Below are positions 35,299 to 49,616 of a stretch of DNA of 64,000 nt, one piece after another. The position numbers and the translations under genes are program-made. The stretch comes from Actinomyces sp. Marseille-P3109 (GTDB lineage: Bacteria > Actinomycetota > Actinomycetes > Actinomycetales > Actinomycetaceae): the NCBI RefSeq assembly GCF_900323545.1, contig NZ_OOHN01000008.1:2118609-2182608 (forward strand), written 5' to 3'. A model generated the notes under the pieces. The model did not search any database, was not told where the DNA came from, and saw only the letters and a program-made list of their open reading frames with translations. Position 1 is the first letter of the stretch. Each line of letters begins with the position of its first letter.

Positions 35299-35901
35299 AT
35301 GTCGACTCCCCAGAACCAACCCCCGTACCAGCCTCCCTATCAGGCTGTGCCCCCGTACGGACAGCAGCGCCCCCGCCCGACTCACGTGGGGAAGCTGATC
35401 ACGGCGATCATCCTGCTCGTCGCCGGCCCATTTCTGGGACTGCTCATCGCGGGCATCGGTTCCGCCATCGTCCTCGCCAACATCGCCACGAGTGGAGACG
35501 TCATCACCAACGGACAGCAGGTCACTCTGAGCAGCAACGATGAGCGCACCCTGTACGTACCGGAAGACGCCATCGCCAGCGCCTGCACCGTCACCGCCCC
35601 GGACGGCAAGGAGGTCCCCACCTCTCACAGCACCGGGTCGCACATCTCCAACAACTACGGCAGCTATGACTCTGTCCTGTCATTCAAAGTCACAAAGGCG
35701 GGAGATTATCGCGTCTCATGCGATGGCCTGAGTGACACCGATCCAGTCTTTGTAGGCCCCGGTCTCACCTTCCACCTATTCCACCTATTCGTGTGGCCGC
35801 TCGCGGCAGGGCTCTGCAGCGGCGTGGCCTGCTGGATCATCGCCGTCATTCTCCTCGTTCGACGCCACCGAGCCCTCGCCGCGCAGACTCAAGTGGGCTG
35901 A
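35299..35901 (+). CDS. Membrane protein with Pro/Tyr-rich N-terminus
   Basis: 200 aa, unknown. MSTPQNQPPYQPPYQAVPPYG is a cytoplasmic-style proline/tyrosine-rich tail; a membrane helix (LITAIILLVAGPFLGLLIAGIGSAIVLA) is followed by an outside domain of ~95 residues with two cysteines (SACTVTAP and YRVSCDG) that could pair, and a second helix (PLAAGLCSGVACWIIAVILLV). The arrangement recalls the tails of the LppM-like proteins at 42-48 kb, but no shared domain is evident. It is a single gene, bordered on the right by AT-rich DNA. Confidence 0.7.
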   Translation: MSTPQNQPPYQPPYQAVPPYGQQRPRPTHVGKLITAIILLVAGPFLGLLIAGIGSAIVLANIATSGDVITNGQQVTLSSNDERTLYVPEDAIASACTVTAPDGKEVPTSHSTGSHISNNYGSYDSVLSFKVTKAGDYRVSCDGLSDTDPVFVGPGLTFHLFHLFVWPLAAGLCSGVACWIIAVILLVRRHRALAAQTQVG

Positions 35902-37769: not shown

Positions 37770-39011
37770 CTATCTCTGACGAGGTACCGCCAAGCCAATG
37801 CCTCGTTCGAGGATCTCGCGCTCTTTCTGCATGCCCTCATCCGGAACGGTGACGTACCTGCCGGTCTCTCGAGTGGCGCCGCGGGCGACACCCCAGAGCC
37901 AGATAGCCTCGCATCTGGCAACCAGCTGCTCCTGCCGTCGCTGAAAGCTCCCCCACGCCACACCGGCGCCGTCCAAGGCGATGTGCCGCCCGTTGGCATA
38001 CACGACAAAGATCCGATCTCCGGCGACGAACAGTCCAGAACGGGACTCCGGCCAGGCGCAGGAGCGCCTTCCGGCGCGAATCCCTCGATCGTCCACGACG
38101 ACTCGTTGGAAGCATCCGTAGATCTTGTAGAGGGGATACGCCATGGTGACCGGTCCGAGCAGAAGGAAGAACACCACGAAGGTGAGGTCCGATCCACTGA
38201 CCGGAGCCGTCTCGAAGAACAGCTGCTGACCACCCATCACCATGAACAGCACCCCCATGCCGATGAGGAAGAGCCCACCGTTGCACAGGTGCTCCTTGAT
38301 TCTGCGCCAGAGCGGAGTGCGGAACACCAGGCGGCTGCGCTGCATCATCTTCTCCGCCCCGTGCCGGACCCGGGCCGCCACGAGACGGGGGTCCTCGCTG
38401 ACAGCGGCATCCTCCGAGATACTCCACCCCCGCGCGTAGATGTAGTACTGCAAGTCCCCCACAGCCGCAGAGGCGCGGTCCTCAGAGCTCCCCCAGGTCA
38501 TCCCGATGACGCATCCGGGAAGTCTGATGGCATCATTGCCGTCACCGTTCTCGATTGCGATCCGAGTCCGCTCAATGAATCCGCCGTACGACGACGGCCC
38601 GTCAGTCAGATTGAGCGTCGACAGCGTGAATCTCGAGGCCACCGATTCCCAGGGACGCCGCTCGGTGAACAGGAGGCGTCGCATGGCGATGCCCTCCGCA
38701 CTCAGCACCGTCTGACGCCGCAGGACATTGATCGCCCAGACCACCGGAATGCCGATTATGGTCACCACGATCATGGCGTCATTGGCTTCATAATCGGTGA
38801 TGTGGGAGCTCATCAGCGGCAGAGCCTTGCGGACCATGCCGGGCACTCCCACCACGAGCACCAGCAGCGCACAGCAGCGGATCATCACCGAGCGTCGCAG
38901 GAGCAGGCGCCCATCAGACTTCTCCGTCGCCCACCACCGCATCGACTTCCCCAGAGTCTCATCGAACAGGTCACCCCGACCGCCACCGACGTCGTTGTCC
39001 TGCCATTCCAT
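37770..39011 (-). CDS. Membrane protein with two PH-like segments
   Basis: 413 aa, unknown. Two pairs of hydrophobic helices (MIRCCALLVLVVGVP with MIVVTIIGIPVVWAI, and GGLFLIGMGVLFMVMG with LTFVVFFLLLGPVTMAYPLY) are each followed by a beta-rich stretch resembling bacterial PH domains: GIAMRRLLFTERRPWESVASRF and VVDDRGIRAGRRSCAWPE with FVVYANGRHIAL. The PH assignment is by eye. Start 39011 (MEWQDND) is preferred because GGAAGG lies upstream; 39047 is an alternative. It lies on the same strand as, and upstream of, the low-GC membrane protein. Confidence 0.65.
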   Translation of the reverse strand: MEWQDNDVGGGRGDLFDETLGKSMRWWATEKSDGRLLLRRSVMIRCCALLVLVVGVPGMVRKALPLMSSHITDYEANDAMIVVTIIGIPVVWAINVLRRQTVLSAEGIAMRRLLFTERRPWESVASRFTLSTLNLTDGPSSYGGFIERTRIAIENGDGNDAIRLPGCVIGMTWGSSEDRASAAVGDLQYYIYARGWSISEDAAVSEDPRLVAARVRHGAEKMMQRSRLVFRTPLWRRIKEHLCNGGLFLIGMGVLFMVMGGQQLFFETAPVSGSDLTFVVFFLLLGPVTMAYPLYKIYGCFQRVVVDDRGIRAGRRSCAWPESRSGLFVAGDRIFVVYANGRHIALDGAGVAWGSFQRRQEQLVARCEAIWLWGVARGATRETGRYVTVPDEGMQKEREILERGIGLAVPRQR

Positions 39012-39215
39012 ACTCGGCACCTTCCACGCTGCTGGGGTCACCGGCACGATGGGAAAGCAATCCGAACACTCACCATCGGCTCCTCGTCACTGTAATAGCG
39101 AGCGCGGCGCCGATTCGTGTCCTCCGATGGGCACCGTTCACCATCCCGTCTCCGACGTGCCCCACATGGACGCACCACACGGTTCGAGGACTGTCCCCGG
39201 CGCTCATACACTGCC

Positions 39216-39980: not shown

Positions 39981-41828
<1,848 letters not shown>

Positions 41829-42071: not shown

Positions 42072-42908
42072 ATGCCCGCCGCGCCATCTTCCGCGTCCCG
42101 TCCAGCGAGCCCCTTCGTGCGCCCTCGACTCCGTCCGCTGATGCGCCCGATCCTGGTGGCCGCCTCCTGCCTGGCGCTGACCGCCTGCACCGCCCACATG
42201 GACATGACCATCAGCTCCCGGGGCAGTTACGACGTCGCCCTGGAGATACGGGACACGACCGGCACCGTCTTCCCCCAGGGCAAGACCCCCGACTGCTCCG
42301 CCTACTCCGACCCCACCACCCTGGGCGTGCCCGCGGGCACCACGATCAAGGCCGATCCTCTCACCGGCGACGACGGCCCCGGCTGCCAGGTGAGCATCAG
42401 CGGGGTCAAGGTCCCCCAGGCCTCGCAGGCCGAGCCGAACACCATCGTCATGCGCGACGGCGACGTCTACAAGGTGACGATCCAGCCCCTCGCCCCCGAT
42501 CCCTCTCAGGACTCGAGCGGAGCCGACGGCGCAGCGGGCACCGCACCGGAGGCGTCCGTCGCCCCGTCAGGCGCCCAGGGCGAGCCCCAGTCGGACAGCA
42601 CGTCCTTCAAGGGCGTCGTCGACACCAAGGTCTCGGTCACCTTCCCCGGTGCGGTGACGCAGTCCGGCGGGGGGAAGGTCTCAGGCACCACGGTCACCTG
42701 GGACGACCCCGACACGGTGGCCAAGGGCGTCAGCGCCTCGGGCTACGCCCAGGACTCCCGGGGCGTGTCCTGGTGGACCCGATCCGGCACCTGGCTGACC
42801 AGCGGCCTGGTGCTGCTCGGGGGCATTCTGACGGTAGCCGTCCTGCGGCGGCGAGCATGGCTGACGGCACGACGCAGGCCGTGGAGGCGAGGCTCGCGCG
42901 AGAAGTAG
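42072..42908 (+). CDS. LppM-like lipoprotein 1 of a six-gene array
   Basis: 278 aa. Signal peptide with lipobox LALTAC (Cys near residue 39). The exported domain shares the array's features: a cysteine pair (PDCSAYS and GPGCQVS) and the signature [25 protein letters not shown] Ser/Ala/Pro insert ([12 protein letters not shown]... to about 180) splits it. A membrane helix ([18 protein letters not shown]) ends it with a short basic tail and no long Pro-rich extension. The fold resembles the LppM domain of mycobacterial LppM (Rv2171); function is unknown here. First gene of the run at 42-48.3 kb. Confidence 0.8.
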
Positions 42909-43071
42909 CCACCTGTCGACGCCGAGGCGACAAACACCGCCTCCTCCGTCTGGACGGCCCTGCCGCCTCGGCGGCGAGCCGCTCGGCGCACCCGTACGTC
43001 CGTACGGGCCCGTGCACAGCGGATCCGGCGGTTGCTCCCGTGCCGCAATGCTCCCGATTTAGACTCGACGC

Positions 43072-44145
43072 ATGAATCATGCCTCCCGCACTGTTCCACG
43101 GCCTGTGGTCGCGACGGTTCTGGCCGGTCTCACGCTGCTCCTGGCCGGCTGCGGAGTCCGCTACGACTTCGTCATCCACAAGAACGAGACCGTCGACCTG
43201 ACCTACATCATGTGGGACTCCTCCAACCTGCGGCTCATCAACAATGAGAACTGCAGTGAGAAGGAGCTGGGGAAGTCAAGCCCTCTCCCCGACGGCGTCG
43301 AGGCGACCTACACCTTCACGTCCCACAACAACTACCCGGCCTGCCAGGTCACCGCCAAAGCGGTCCCGCTCAGCAAGCTGCAGACCGACACGTGGACGAT
43401 CAAGCACGAGGGCGGGCAGTACGTCTTCGATCTGTCCCCTGACTCGTTGAGCACGCTCAGCTCGAAGAACCCGCAACTGTCGAATCAGGACATCGCCGGA
43501 CGCACCAAGGTCTCCGTGTCGGTGACCTTCCCCGGTGAGGTGACGAAGTCCAACGGCAGAAACGACGGAAACAAAGTCACCTGGGACAACGCCCTGGAGA
43601 GCTCCGACGGCCTTCACGCCGAGGGCGAGGACGGCCAGTTCCACCTGCGCTGGTGGATGATCGTCTTGGCCGTCAGCGTCGTTCTCCTCATTGTCGCGGG
43701 TGTCGTGCTCTACCTCCTGAGGGTTCGTCGCGCCCAGCAGATGGTTCCCGTCGCCCCGTACGGGGAGGTCCCCCAGCACGTCGGAGCCGCCGGCTTCACT
43801 CCACCGGACGTCTACATCAGCGGCCCCTACCAGTCGCCTCTGCCCGGCGTCCAGCAGCCGACGTCGGGGCCCACCCAGACCTACCCTGTTGCCGATCTTC
43901 AGGCCGGCTACTCCCCGTACATCGATCCGGGCGCAGGTGCCGGCACCTTCCCACCTCAGGACCCCGGCTATGCTGCCTACCCGGCCGGCGCCAACATCTA
44001 CGGGGCCCAGGACGGCAATGGGATCTACTCCCCCGGGACGGGGCACGCGCAGATGCCCTATCAGGAGGGCAACGGGTACGCGGGCTTCCACCCCCCGCAG
44101 GAGGGGAGCGGCGATCAGTACTACCCGCCGTACCAGGGCGGGTAG
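43072..44145 (+). CDS. LppM-like lipoprotein 2
   Basis: 357 aa. Signal peptide and lipobox LLLAGC (Cys near 28), then the LppM-like domain with NENCSEKEL and YPACQVT cysteines and VSVSVTFPGEVTKSNGRNDGNKVTW. A membrane helix (WWMIVLAVSVVLLIVAGVVLYLL) is followed by a ~130-residue cytoplasmic tail rich in Pro/Gly/Tyr/Gln. Having both a lipid anchor and a helix, it should span the membrane with the domain outside and the tail inside. The stop codon lies inside a 22-bp tandem duplication and a hairpin. Confidence 0.82.
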   Translation: MNHASRTVPRPVVATVLAGLTLLLAGCGVRYDFVIHKNETVDLTYIMWDSSNLRLINNENCSEKELGKSSPLPDGVEATYTFTSHNNYPACQVTAKAVPLSKLQTDTWTIKHEGGQYVFDLSPDSLSTLSSKNPQLSNQDIAGRTKVSVSVTFPGEVTKSNGRNDGNKVTWDNALESSDGLHAEGEDGQFHLRWWMIVLAVSVVLLIVAGVVLYLLRVRRAQQMVPVAPYGEVPQHVGAAGFTPPDVYISGPYQSPLPGVQQPTSGPTQTYPVADLQAGYSPYIDPGAGAGTFPPQDPGYAAYPAGANIYGAQDGNGIYSPGTGHAQMPYQEGNGYAGFHPPQEGSGDQYYPPYQGG

Positions 44146-44148
44146 TAC
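44118..44148 (+). terminator. Hairpin across the stop codon of LppM-like gene 2
   Basis: Arms GTACTACCCGCC (44118-44129) and GGCGGGTAGTAC (44137-44148) with a 7-nt loop; the TAG stop (44143-44145) is in the right arm. It could act as a terminator or stabilise the mRNA end. Confidence 0.5.
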
Positions 44149-44186
44149 GGGTAGTACTGCCACTTAGTACGGGTAGTACTGCCACT
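44143..44186. repeat. 22-bp perfect tandem duplication at the stop codon
   Basis: The 22 bases 44143-44164 (beginning TAGTACGGGTAG) are repeated exactly at 44165-44186. The first copy contains the stop codon of the preceding gene. It looks like a slippage duplication between array genes 2 and 3. Confidence 0.95.
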
Positions 44187-44229
44187 CGAATAACCGACCG
44201 GCAGACGAGGCGACGGCTAGGGTGTCACC

Positions 44230-45117
44230 ATGAACTGCGCCCTCGCCATCAAGAGCATCCGCACAACGCTGGCTGCGCTGGCCGTCCTCGCCTTTGTCGC
44301 CGCCATGGCCCTGATCACTCCCCCGGGACAGGCGGCCGACGAGCTGAATGTCACCATCGACATGAAGGTGACTGTGAAGAGCGATGACACTTTTGAGGCG
44401 TCTTTCGTCATCACCGACCGGACGGACTACAGCTGGGCTCCCCCCATCAACGAGGAAAACTGCACCCTGGACTACTTCCTCGTAGAACCGAATATCTTTG
44501 CCAATGCTGAGCCGAAATTCGATGACGGGAAGGACAAACGAGTCTGCACCATCACGAAGAAGGGAAATATCTCCGAGACCAACGGCGCGATCAGTCACAG
44601 CAACGGCGAGTACGCCATCGATACCACCAGCCTGAACGAGCGCAAGACACCGTCCCCGAAGCTGCAGCAGTTCTACGCGGCCACTTTCCCGGGCGAGGTG
44701 ACCCAGAGCGAGGGCGGCAAGGTCGAGGGCAACACCGTCAGCTTCACCGAATTCACGGGCCGCGTGGTCAAGGGCAAGGACCGTCCCGCCTCCGAGATCA
44801 CGATCAGCAAGGTCCTTCCCTGGATCATCGGTGGCGTCGGCGCACTCGTGGCGGCCGGGCTCATCGTGACAGCGGTCATTGTCCGACGTCGCCAGCGAAG
44901 CGGGCAGGGTGCACCAGGGCCTGGTGCGCAGGCCGTCCCCACCCAGGGCCCTGTGCCGCAACAGCCCTACCTCGGCCAGCCAGCACCTCAGCAGTACCCC
45001 ATGCAGCCGACGCCGTCTCACTCCCCCTCCGGGACCGGCAACGGCACCTACCCGCCCTTGCCCGCACAGGCGCCCCAGCAGCACGGCCAGTGGTCCCCGC
45101 CGCCGCAGCCTCAGTGA
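44230..45117 (+). CDS. LppM-like membrane protein 3
   Basis: 295 aa. Signal peptide ending near QAADE, without lipobox cysteine, then the LppM-like domain: NEENCTLDYFL and KRVCTITKKGNISE cysteines, SHSNGEYAIDT, and the signature AATFPGEVTQSEGGKVEGNTVSF followed by RVVKGKDRP. The membrane helix WIIGGVGALVAAGLIVTAVIV and RRRQR are followed by a ~70-residue Pro/Gln-rich tail. It differs from proteins 1 and 2 in having no lipid anchor. Same strand as the neighbours with 84 bp spacing. Confidence 0.82.
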   Translation: MNCALAIKSIRTTLAALAVLAFVAAMALITPPGQAADELNVTIDMKVTVKSDDTFEASFVITDRTDYSWAPPINEENCTLDYFLVEPNIFANAEPKFDDGKDKRVCTITKKGNISETNGAISHSNGEYAIDTTSLNERKTPSPKLQQFYAATFPGEVTQSEGGKVEGNTVSFTEFTGRVVKGKDRPASEITISKVLPWIIGGVGALVAAGLIVTAVIVRRRQRSGQGAPGPGAQAVPTQGPVPQQPYLGQPAPQQYPMQPTPSHSPSGTGNGTYPPLPAQAPQQHGQWSPPPQPQ

Positions 45118-45187
45118 CAGCCCGGCGGGGAGCGGTCCCCACGAATATCTGGTTACAACCAAGCATCGGAACCGCTACTGTGGGCCC

Positions 45188-46159
45188 ATGACACCTGCCG
45201 CCGCTCGCCGCATCCCCGCGCCCTTTTCCGCGTTGACAGCTCTTGTCGTCCTTGTTGTGTCCGCCGCCCTGGCCCTGGCTGGGGCACCCGGGCACGCCGC
45301 TCCTCAAGCCGATCTGGACTTCAAGATCACCATGGACGTCGACCTCGTCATCAAGTCCAACGACTCGTTCACCATCAAGATGGAGATGGTCGACTCCTCA
45401 ACCGGCGTCGAGGCCATCTCCGAAGACGCCTGCACCGCAGAGAGCTTCAACAGCCTCAGCTCCGGCGACTACTACAAGAACGCCAAGTTCACCTTCAAGG
45501 ATGAAGGCGACACCCGCACCTGCACCATCGAGGGATCCGGCAAGATCGCTGACGCCAAGGGAATCACCCACAAGAACGGTGAGTACATCGTCGACGCCAC
45601 GTCCGGCGGCTCTGCCAGCGCCGACTCGGTGCCGGGCCTCGAGCTCAACTACTCAGTCACCTTCCCCGGCAAAGTCACCGAGGCCGACGGCGGCAAGGTC
45701 GACGGCAACAAGGTCACCTTCACCGACTCGATGAACCACAAGGTGAAGGGCAAGGACGGCTCCATCCCCATGTGGGTCTGGATTCTTGTCGGCGTCGGCG
45801 TCCTGGCCGTGGTCGCTGGAGGCGTTGCCGCCTTCGTCATCACCCGGAAGAAGAAGAACCAGGCCCAGGCCTCCCCCTACGCCGCTCCCGGTCAGGGCTA
45901 CGACCCCAACCAGCCCTTCCCGGCTCAGCCGGGTCAGCAGCCGGGCTACGGCGCCGCTCCCCAGGGCTCCGGGCAGCCGGGCTACGGCGCTCAACCCGAC
46001 AGCAGCCAGGCCTACGGCGCTCAACCCGACAGCAGCCAGGCCTACGGCGGCCAACCCGGTACCCAGCCCGGCTACGGAGCCCCTCAGGCCCAACCCGGGC
46101 AGCCCGGCTACGGCCCTCAGCCCGGCCAGCCCGGACAGCCCGGACAAGGCACCTACTGA
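45188..46159 (+). CDS. LppM-like membrane protein 4
   Basis: 323 aa. Signal peptide (to about GHAAPQA), LppM-like domain with EDACTAESF and TRTCTIEGSGKIADAKGITHKNGEYIVD, the signature YSVTFPGKVTEADGGKVDGNKVTF and HKVKGKDGS. Helix MWVWILVGVGVLAVVAGGVAAFVI and RKKK precede a tail of Gly/Tyr/Gln/Pro repeats, including two AYGAQPDSSQ-type units. Start taken at ATG 45188, where the signal peptide begins; the open frame upstream shadows gene 3. A strong terminator follows at 46179. Confidence 0.83.
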   Translation: MTPAAARRIPAPFSALTALVVLVVSAALALAGAPGHAAPQADLDFKITMDVDLVIKSNDSFTIKMEMVDSSTGVEAISEDACTAESFNSLSSGDYYKNAKFTFKDEGDTRTCTIEGSGKIADAKGITHKNGEYIVDATSGGSASADSVPGLELNYSVTFPGKVTEADGGKVDGNKVTFTDSMNHKVKGKDGSIPMWVWILVGVGVLAVVAGGVAAFVITRKKKNQAQASPYAAPGQGYDPNQPFPAQPGQQPGYGAAPQGSGQPGYGAQPDSSQAYGAQPDSSQAYGGQPGTQPGYGAPQAQPGQPGYGPQPGQPGQPGQGTY

Positions 46160-46178
46160 CATCTGCCCCACATCACTC

Positions 46179-46220
46179 GTGGCCCCGGAGTTACGCGACT
46201 CCGGGGCCACGGCCCTTTTT
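46179..46220 (+). terminator. Rho-independent terminator after LppM-like gene 4
   Basis: Perfect 13-bp arms GTGGCCCCGGAGT (46179-46191) and ACTCCGGGGCCAC (46198-46210), then GGCCC and TTTTT (46216-46220). It splits the array into at least two transcripts. Confidence 0.85.
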
Positions 46221-46320
46221 CGACCGCCGCCGGCCCTCCGCACTCATCCCGGGTCATCCCGGCCGATCTTCACCATCCGTTCAGCCCTCTTACCTCCGAC
46301 GATCGTCTAGGGTGAGGCTC

Positions 46321-47199
46321 ATGGCAGCAACCACTCCCCTGCGCCTTACCCTGCGCACACTGACATTCCTCCCACTTCTCGCATCCCTCGCGCTCGCCTC
46401 CTCCGCGGGCAACGCATTGACGCCCACCGCCACAAGTCGGGACAGCCGAGGCTCCTACACCGTTGACGTCACGATCAACAAGGACGATACCTACGACTAC
46501 AAGGTGGCCGTCGCGCGAGACAAGAAGAATTCTTCGGCATCATCAGACGATCTCAAAGAGAGCTGCGAAGAGTCGACGGGGTCGGGGGCCTTGGAGAACG
46601 CCAAGGCGACCTACTCCGAGCCCGGAGGGCGTCCCACCTGCACCTTCAGCGGGAAGGACAAGATCTCCGAGAGCAATGACCTCATCGAGCACGTGGGAGA
46701 CGAGTACGTCTTCGACACCGGGAACGGGGGACTGTCCAGTGCCGACAGCGACCTGGATTTCTCCCTGTCGGTCACCTTCCCCGGAAAAGTCACCAACTCC
46801 GACGGCGGCAAGATCGACGGAACCACCGTCACCTTCGATGAGGCCGGTGAGTACCGGGTGACCGGCAAGGACACCCCCGCCTTCCCGTGGGTCTGGGTGA
46901 TCATCGGAGTGCTGGTGGTCGCAGCCGCCGGAGGCGGCGCCTTCTGGTACCTGAACAATCGTAAGAAGGGGACTCAGCAGCAGGCGTACCAGGCTTCCCC
47001 AGCCGGAGCCGTAGGATACGCACCCGGACAGCCTCAGTCCCCTGTTCCCGGTCAGGCGCAAGCACCCGGTTCGGTCCCCCCGCCGGCCTCAGGCGCGGCC
47101 GGTCCGGGCTACGGGCAGCAGGAACACGGCGGTGCCGTGGCCCCCGGCCCCGTTCCCCCTCCTCCTGGCGGACAGCCCGACTCACCGGCCTCCCACTGA
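46321..47199 (+). CDS. LppM-like membrane protein 5
   Basis: 292 aa. Signal peptide (to about AGNALT), LppM-like domain with LKESCEESTG and RPTCTFSGKDKISES, EHVGDEYVFD, and the signature LSVTFPGKVTNSDGGKIDGTTVTF then YRVTGKDTP. Helix FPWVWVIIGVLVVAAAGGGAFWYL and RKK lead to a ~75-residue Gln/Pro/Gly-rich tail. The ATG at 46321 begins the signal peptide; the open frame upstream runs through gene 4 and its terminator. Closest in layout to protein 4. Confidence 0.83.
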   Translation: MAATTPLRLTLRTLTFLPLLASLALASSAGNALTPTATSRDSRGSYTVDVTINKDDTYDYKVAVARDKKNSSASSDDLKESCEESTGSGALENAKATYSEPGGRPTCTFSGKDKISESNDLIEHVGDEYVFDTGNGGLSSADSDLDFSLSVTFPGKVTNSDGGKIDGTTVTFDEAGEYRVTGKDTPAFPWVWVIIGVLVVAAAGGGAFWYLNNRKKGTQQQAYQASPAGAVGYAPGQPQSPVPGQAQAPGSVPPPASGAAGPGYGQQEHGGAVAPGPVPPPPGGQPDSPASH

Positions 47200-47209
47200 G
47201 GCCGACCGC

Positions 47210-47255
47210 GGCGGCCCTGAGCTCATGTTAGACATGTGATGTGCTCAGGGCCGCC
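47210..47255 (+). terminator. Hairpin after LppM-like gene 5
   Basis: Perfect 13-bp arms GGCGGCCCTGAGC (47210-47222) and GCTCAGGGCCGCC (47243-47255), 11 bases after the stop. No U-tract. Confidence 0.6.
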
Positions 47256-47314
47256 GACGCCGTTCAACGGAATCGGATGCCCTTCTTCTCGTCCACGCAG
47301 CTCTAAGGCGGCAC

Positions 47315-48283
47315 ATGCACCACCCCGCTCTTCGACATGCTCCGGCAACACCCCTGACCGCCCTTCTCTGTCTCGTCACCGTCGTCCTCACGGCGGGGGC
47401 TGCTCCCGCGAACGCCGCCGCCCCCTTGGCGAGTACTAACGAGGAGAAGGTCACCATCGAGATCGATATCAAATCGGATGATGAGGTGACGACGACCTTC
47501 CTCGCCACCGCGCCGTCCGATGGCGAGCAGACGCTCAAGGACTTCTGCACCGAGGAGAACTTCTCAACCGACACGGCGACACCGAAGGTGACCTTCTCCT
47601 CCAAGAACGGGACTCCCACCTGTACAGCCGTCATCACCGGGTCGGTGTCCGAGAACGAGTATGTGACACATGACGGAGACGAATACGTCGTCGACACCGC
47701 GGTGGCCTCGGCATCTGAGGAGGACAAGGAGAGCTCGCTGACGCTCTCGGTCGTCTTCCCCGGGAAGGTCACGGATGCCGGTGGCGGCACGATAGAGGGG
47801 GAGCACAAGAACAAGGTCTCGTTCGACTCCTTCTACGACAATAAGGCCCGCGGTCGAGACACTGCCGAGGCGGCGGTCAAGGAGTCCTCCGGGAACGCCG
47901 GGTTATGGATCATCATCATTCTGATGCTCATGGTGGTGGCCGCCAGCGGAGTCATCGCTCTCATCTCCAACAGCGCCAGGAAGAACCGGGAGCAGAAGTA
48001 CCTCGCCGCTCTGGAGCAGCAGTCGTTCAACGCAGCGGCGGCCGCACCGATGTACCAGCCTCTCCCCTACACCTCACCGACCCCTCCCGTAGGCGGTCCG
48101 CCCCAGCCGCAGGTCTACTACCCACAGGCCCCTCAGCAGAGCGGCTACCCTCCATCGCAGATGCCTCCGGTCGGCCAGGCCGGATACCTGGGAGCGCCGC
48201 AGCCCTATCAGCAGCCTCCTGGCTCGCCCCCGCCCGGAGCGGGTGGCCCGTACCCTCCGCCGGGGCAGGGCATATACGGCGGT

Positions 48284-48289
<6 letters not shown>
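47315..48289 (+). CDS. LppM-like membrane protein 6
   Basis: 324 aa. Signal peptide ending near ANAAA, LppM-like domain with KDFCTEENFS and TPTCTAVITGSVSE, THDGDEYVVDT, and a diverged signature LSVVFPGKVTDAGGGTIEGEHKNKVSF. Helix LWIIIILMLMVVAASGVIALI is followed by a ~105-residue Pro/Tyr/Gly/Gln-rich tail ending GQGIYGGG. The last gene of the array; its stop lies within a hairpin shared with the convergent purA gene. Confidence 0.82.

Positions 48290-49616
<1,327 letters not shown>

Follow-up and report, generated by a model that had tools for sequence, protein, structure and literature searches.

Why does a member of the genus Actinomyces carry, in tandem, six relatives of a gene that Mycobacterium tuberculosis has in a single copy? 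The question is raised by a stretch of 64,000 nucleotides from Actinomyces sp. Marseille-P3109 (contig NZ_OOHN01000008.1, positions 2,118,609 to 2,182,608), referred to here as the window, in which six consecutive plus-strand open reading frames (ORFs), at 42072..48289, occupy the whole interval between pckG and purA. The ORFs lie where a preliminary description had placed them when it proposed an undescribed system of LppM-like envelope proteins with two modes of anchoring. We find that the array almost certainly represents an expansion of the LppM family, well supported as a genus-wide tandem expansion at an old pckG-purA locus, and we weigh the proposal that its domains bind lipid and its tails recruit cytoplasmic partners. 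To this explanation as a whole, from expansion through lipid binding to tail recruitment, we assign a probability of roughly 0.5.

Five of the six proteins exceed the curated cut-off of 27 bits for the Pfam LppM family, PF21946 (genes 1 to 6 score 27.4, 62.4, 24.2, 32.1, 44.9 and 32.5 bits), and gene 3 scores 111.8 bits with our genus profile A5, a profile that includes gene 3 as a row. Genome-wide, PF21946 matches five places, every one of them inside the array. The modelled domains are predicted to adopt the LppM fold as in PDB 2NC8, which is their best fold match, and the helix is present in both models. With relatives already named 'LppM family (lipo)protein' in database sources and Pfam covering five of the six, the family itself is known and the claim of an undescribed system does not hold in that form.

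By hydropathy, each of the six proteins has a hydrophobic N-terminal segment and, past the domain, a hydrophobic 19-mer, which indicates export and a C-terminal transmembrane (TM) helix; basic residues follow the helix in all six. Gene 1 (42072..42908, +; class A) has a lipobox, read as LTAC (Cys39), an LppM domain at 42192-42740 (E 4.7e-6 with Pfam; Cys75/Cys105) and a TM helix at ~42789-42845, followed by a tail of 20 residues, numerous basic ones among them. Gene 2 (43072..44145, +; class B) has the lipobox LAGC (Cys27), a domain at 43156-43638 (Cys61/Cys91), a TM helix at ~43660-43716 and a tail of 142 residues rich in Pro, Gln, Gly and Tyr. The remaining four, of class C, lack a lipobox, and are thus LppM-domain proteins and not LppM-type lipoproteins; their Pro/Gln/Gly/Tyr-rich tails run to 78, 106, 84 and 107 residues. 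Gene 3 (44230..45117, +; domain 44356-44787, Cys78/Cys106; TM ~44824-44880) and gene 4 (45188..46159, +; domain 45332-45763, Cys82/Cys112; TM ~45782-45838; QGYDPNQ motif in the tail) have plain signal peptides, as does gene 6 (47315..48289, +; domain 47450-47866; TM ~47909-47965), while gene 5 (46312..47199, +; domain 46456-46878; TM ~46888-46944) starts at GTG 46312 or ATG 46321. The two anchoring modes and the differing tails of the preliminary description are borne out; its V-x-F-P-G-type signature fits genes 1, 4, 5 and 6 literally and is departed from in genes 2 (VTKSNGRN) and 3 (AATFPG). M. tuberculosis LppM (Rv2171, the protein of PDB 2NC8 and PF21946) differs from the array in its single copy; five array proteins have the long tails, four lack the lipobox, and all have a conserved cysteine pair.

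This pair, also noted at the outset, is present in all 90 domains collected from the window and 20 fetched loci, which represent 19 genomes (L039 and L040 being from the same one). Among 43 matched outgroup ORFs, those at the level of the taxonomic class (L071 on) have no cysteine in the matched part, nor do six loci within the family (L055-L060), which do have a lipobox. Since the pair is invariant and the domains are exported, we predict that it forms a disulfide; a pathway for oxidative folding exists in Actinomyces oris.

Sorted by architecture, with thresholds chosen after inspection of the feature table, the 90 proteins comprise 19 with a lipobox and short tail, 15 with a lipobox and long tail, and 56 without a lipobox, six of which count as short-tailed under the class rule (13-44 residues). 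A tree of the domain only, with 11 hand-picked outgroup ORFs of the 43, contains a 19-gene clade (100/99) and a 15-gene clade (93/88), and these are exactly the two lipobox lists, classes A and B. Class C falls into three groups in the free tree; the price of holding it together in a single clade is 0.86 log units (p-AU 0.25). The lipobox state changes twice. Long branches are flagged by the tree program, so the order of the groups is uncertain. Where the classes occur, the compared arrays keep the order A, B, C on one strand; a class A gene comes first in 19 of the 21 sources, and both exceptions are contig fragments. Class C genes number from none to five per array, by species, and a GYDP motif occurs in 12 of the 50 long class C tails.

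Across the genus, PF21946 matches 48 of 49 genomes, with one to seven copies: 29 have at least three, 15 have two and four have one, and the single genome without a match is 89% complete. The array is thus not peculiar to its own genome, 44 of the 49 having at least two copies, and the six domains are similar to one another, so neither of the two outcomes that the preliminary description said would refute it was obtained. Its view of an expansion relative to a usual single gene is likewise upheld, most relatives in the taxonomic class and family being single-copy. A class-wide draw gave matches in 84 of 394 genomes (our own with five, 77 with one, six with two), and in a family draw of 200 genomes PF21946 matched 91 and the more sensitive A5 matched 117. 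Of these 117, 80 lie outside the genus: 62 are single-copy, 15 have two copies, and G051, G089 and G085 have 3, 4 and 18 respectively, so that the multi-copy state is typical of the genus and not unique to it.

The surroundings are shared too. In the window pckG (GTP-type phosphoenolpyruvate carboxykinase; 39981..41828, -) is divergent with respect to gene 1 and purA (adenylosuccinate synthetase; 48315..49601, -) convergent with respect to gene 6. Among 24 named Actinomyces loci, with 1 to 7 LppM ORFs each, pckG is present in 23, purA in 20 and both in 19; four of the five without both flanks (L190, L193, L202, L205) stop early at a contig end, and the fifth, A. oris WE8B-23, has its purA farther away. 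In A. viscosus purA is ~10 kb past the array. One array gene of A. urogenitalis shows up as two half-ORFs, each holding a single cysteine (L192:11163-12029), probably through a frameshift or sequencing error, and its 4 ORFs are therefore probably 3 genes. Elsewhere in the family, outside the genus, 9 of 12 fetched loci have pckG or purA, and some genus genomes, such as G004 and G048, also have copies off the array. Given the common pckG-purA surroundings, the array most likely grew in place.

Nine loci of three sister genera (L061-L069) each have one LppM lipoprotein that has a lipobox, two cysteines (three in L068), a helix and a tail, and that is nearest to gene 2; these genera have neither a class A partner without a tail nor a class C partner without lipidation. 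All six sister-genus loci fetched at length (L100-L105) have purA or pckG close by. A history is well supported in which the ancestor was a single lipoprotein, with a cysteine-pair domain, a TM helix and a Pro/Gln/Gly/Tyr-rich tail; class A arose by loss of the tail, class B by retention of the ancestral layout and class C by loss of the lipobox, possibly once; and class C later multiplied independently in separate species groups.

What has selection done with the copies? We compared the window with A. naeslundii, A. viscosus, oral taxon 170, A. johnsonii and A. oris. The pckG products are 97-99% identical in all five comparisons and the purA products, matched in four of them, 95-96% (the A. 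viscosus row was dropped, no true purA having been matched), and the best matches of the six array proteins, some of them non-orthologous, are 40-82% identical. In 15 orthologous pairs supported by the tree (genes 1, 2, 3, 5 and 6 against A. viscosus and A. oris CCUG 34288, and genes 1-5 against A. naeslundii), the domains have a non-synonymous divergence (dN) of 0.06-0.38 and a ratio of this to synonymous divergence (dN/dS) of 0.10-0.41, the lowest value coming from a saturated dS. The ratio is below 1 in all computable pairs, some of which are non-orthologous because the species lacks that copy (for example genes 4-5 against oral taxon 170, gene 6 against A. naeslundii and gene 3 against A. 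johnsonii). Judged by these substitutions, the genes are fast and constrained, and are not decaying.

Such divergence, together with the range of copy number and class C clades specific to species groups, is what might be expected if the domains formed a diversifying recognition set at the surface, facing partners, phages or host factors, in which copies are gained, lost and changed and lipid binding is incidental. We regard this as unlikely. The ratios below 1 argue against it, as does the class A gene that so regularly opens the array; moreover dS is raised as well, at 0.25-1.29 in array genes against 0.09-0.13 in pckG (0.09-0.25 for pckG and purA together), so that recombination or weak codon bias may account for part of the divergence. 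Neighbouring genes mostly have a dN of 0.005-0.05, yet two of them, at 35299-35901 (dN 0.14-0.21) and 37770-39047 (dN ~0.24), are as fast as the array, and two more reach 0.12-0.15 against A. viscosus.

The constant order of the classes on one strand, the helices rich in small residues and the low-complexity tails would also suit a hetero-oligomeric envelope complex, its six subunits joined through their helices and its tails forming a cytoplasmic scaffold. This we consider rather improbable, since the number of class C genes varies so widely by species, the single-copy relatives cope alone, and a terminator interrupts the array. Of the internal terminators previously claimed, one stands: the spacer of genes 4 and 5 has a strong intrinsic terminator (46177..46212, +) with a 16-bp stem followed by CCCTTTTT. 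The spacer of genes 5 and 6 (47200..47314, +) has a hairpin that is long and GC-rich but is without a T tract. A scan of the whole region found 2 terminator-like sites, against 2.6 in shuffled sequences, so the case for the former depends on the quality of that one hairpin.

Paralogues in birth-and-death turnover might, alternatively, be largely redundant, maintained by dosage or neutral drift with no division of labour. Class C does turn over, in that the tree finds no orthologue of gene 6 in L045 and none of gene 3 in L035. However, classes A and B are kept as separate clades with separate architectures across the genus, and the domains are under purifying selection; we think this account quite improbable. 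That the proteins are sortase-anchored or pilin-like, for which one might cite the exported domain, the C-terminal helix with its basic residues and a stray match of the genus profile, away from the array, in a pilin-like gene (G000:C8:207263, E 4.8e-5), is largely refuted and extremely improbable, for no LPxTG-like motif was found in the six array proteins, long tails extend beyond the helix, the best fold match is LppM, and the stray gene has no cysteine in its matched part and is not found by PF21946. At that place in the same genome (L165:6412-10021, C8 ~206-210 kb) two adjoining ORFs appear pilin-like by eye and match the LppM profile weakly; they probably contain an unrelated beta domain.

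We return to the reading of the array as a set of lipid-binding, partner-recruiting paralogues. The beta-rich LppM domain would be held against the cytoplasmic membrane on its outer side, through lipid and helix in classes A and B and through the helix alone in class C, and the disordered tail may reach into the cytoplasm and recruit partners there. The domain may bind or transfer envelope lipids of the phosphatidylinositol mannoside (PIM) type, by analogy with M. tuberculosis LppM, and the paralogues would differ in their choice of lipid or partner. Lipid binding, to which we give somewhat less than even odds, is suggested by the fold, the reports on LppM, and the presence in the same genome of a phosphatidylinositol phosphate (PIP) synthase and a PIM acyltransferase, both above their NCBIfam cut-offs. 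The genes for these enzymes are preceded by a HIT-type gene (below cut-off) and by an ORF read as thrS, and are followed by a glycosyltransferase claimed by no model, an order that presumably resembles the mycobacterial thrS-pimA cluster.

As to the reports, a passage of one review states that LppM can bind PIM (PMC6151718). An lppM transposon mutant is described as growing in clumps and arriving more frequently in acidified phagosomes (PMC2936551), and an lppM mutant is listed among the strains most depleted by antibiotics in a screen of mycobacterial lipoproteins, the locus tags suggesting M. marinum (PMC12802301).

Several points weigh against this reading. Gene 3 falls short of the Pfam cut-off, the models cover two of the six domains, identity to 2NC8 is 12-16% only, and a profile built from the six reached 2NC8 at E 0.059 only; a common fold, besides, proves no function. 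The claim of PIM binding comes from that single review passage. PF21946 found no LppM in 310 of the 394 class genomes or in any of 14 control genomes, and one of these controls, Corynebacterium glutamicum, has a match to the acyltransferase family; LppM is therefore not a general partner of PIM synthesis. The low-complexity tails, finally, may be mere spacers.

The family has been expanded independently in another genus of the family (G085, genus code g4), in which two of 18 LppM-domain genes stand at pckG-purA (L151) and 16 in seven dispersed clusters (L150, L152-L157). Each domain has two cysteines, as in Actinomyces; unlike the Actinomyces array, all 18 have a lipobox-like cysteine and the tails are mostly short. 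Every one of the seven clusters adjoins, convergently, a member of a Ser/Gly/Arg-rich gene family (~560-620 amino acids, starting MATPNADRL), of which 11 profile matches, read as 10 genes, were found in G085, 8 of the 10 within the clusters; four clusters also have a small partner gene of one additional family. The Ser/Gly/Arg-rich family has no Pfam family above cut-off and matches 6 of the 200 family genomes, none from Actinomyces. The linkage was not found in two other genomes of the same genus, so it is a one-genome result, and the clusters may have arisen by duplication of a single unit. Genome G104 has distant relatives of the Ser/Gly/Arg-rich family; one of them (L221:10009-15159) has sub-threshold matches to WXG100-type models (WXG100_2, E 8e-4), and a 908-residue gene nearby has one to T7SS_signal (E 1e-4), similarities that would hint at a link to type VII secretion.

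Two other features of the window deserve mention. The spacer of genes 2 and 3 contains two exact direct copies of a 19-base repeat, TACGGGTAGTACTGCCACT, with an inner near-palindrome (44146..44186, +), and a genome-wide search that allowed as many as 2 mismatches found no third copy. Upstream of pckG, the fast gene at 37770-39047 (-; dS ~1.2) encodes what appears by eye to be a membrane protein, with no Pfam family at E 0.001 and with relatives in 8 of the 21 sources, the window counted.

The multiplication of LppM into a set whose members differ in anchor and tail appears to be undescribed: the parts of the literature that we searched contained no description of the genus-wide tandem set, of its three classes that follow the tree, of the loss of lipidation in class C, or of the tails. 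It is conceivable, if improbable, that the Actinomycetaceae turned a single PIM-binding lipoprotein into a system of envelope paralogues, in which lipid-binding receptors, doubly anchored in classes A and B and singly in class C, have disordered cytoplasmic tails and jointly form a surface that presents or senses lipids, with a repertoire that class C turnover varies, and that the family was separately recruited in the sister genus beside WXG100-like exported gene pairs. The structure of LppM is solved and infection phenotypes are on record for it, yet it has no settled molecular role in the portions of the literature searched. A group of relatives in which it has been multiplied, lipidation separated from the helix and tails added, with the parts under selection, is a natural experiment on what each part contributes, and its study would give a name to a fast-evolving set of exported genes present in at least two copies in most Actinomyces genomes.
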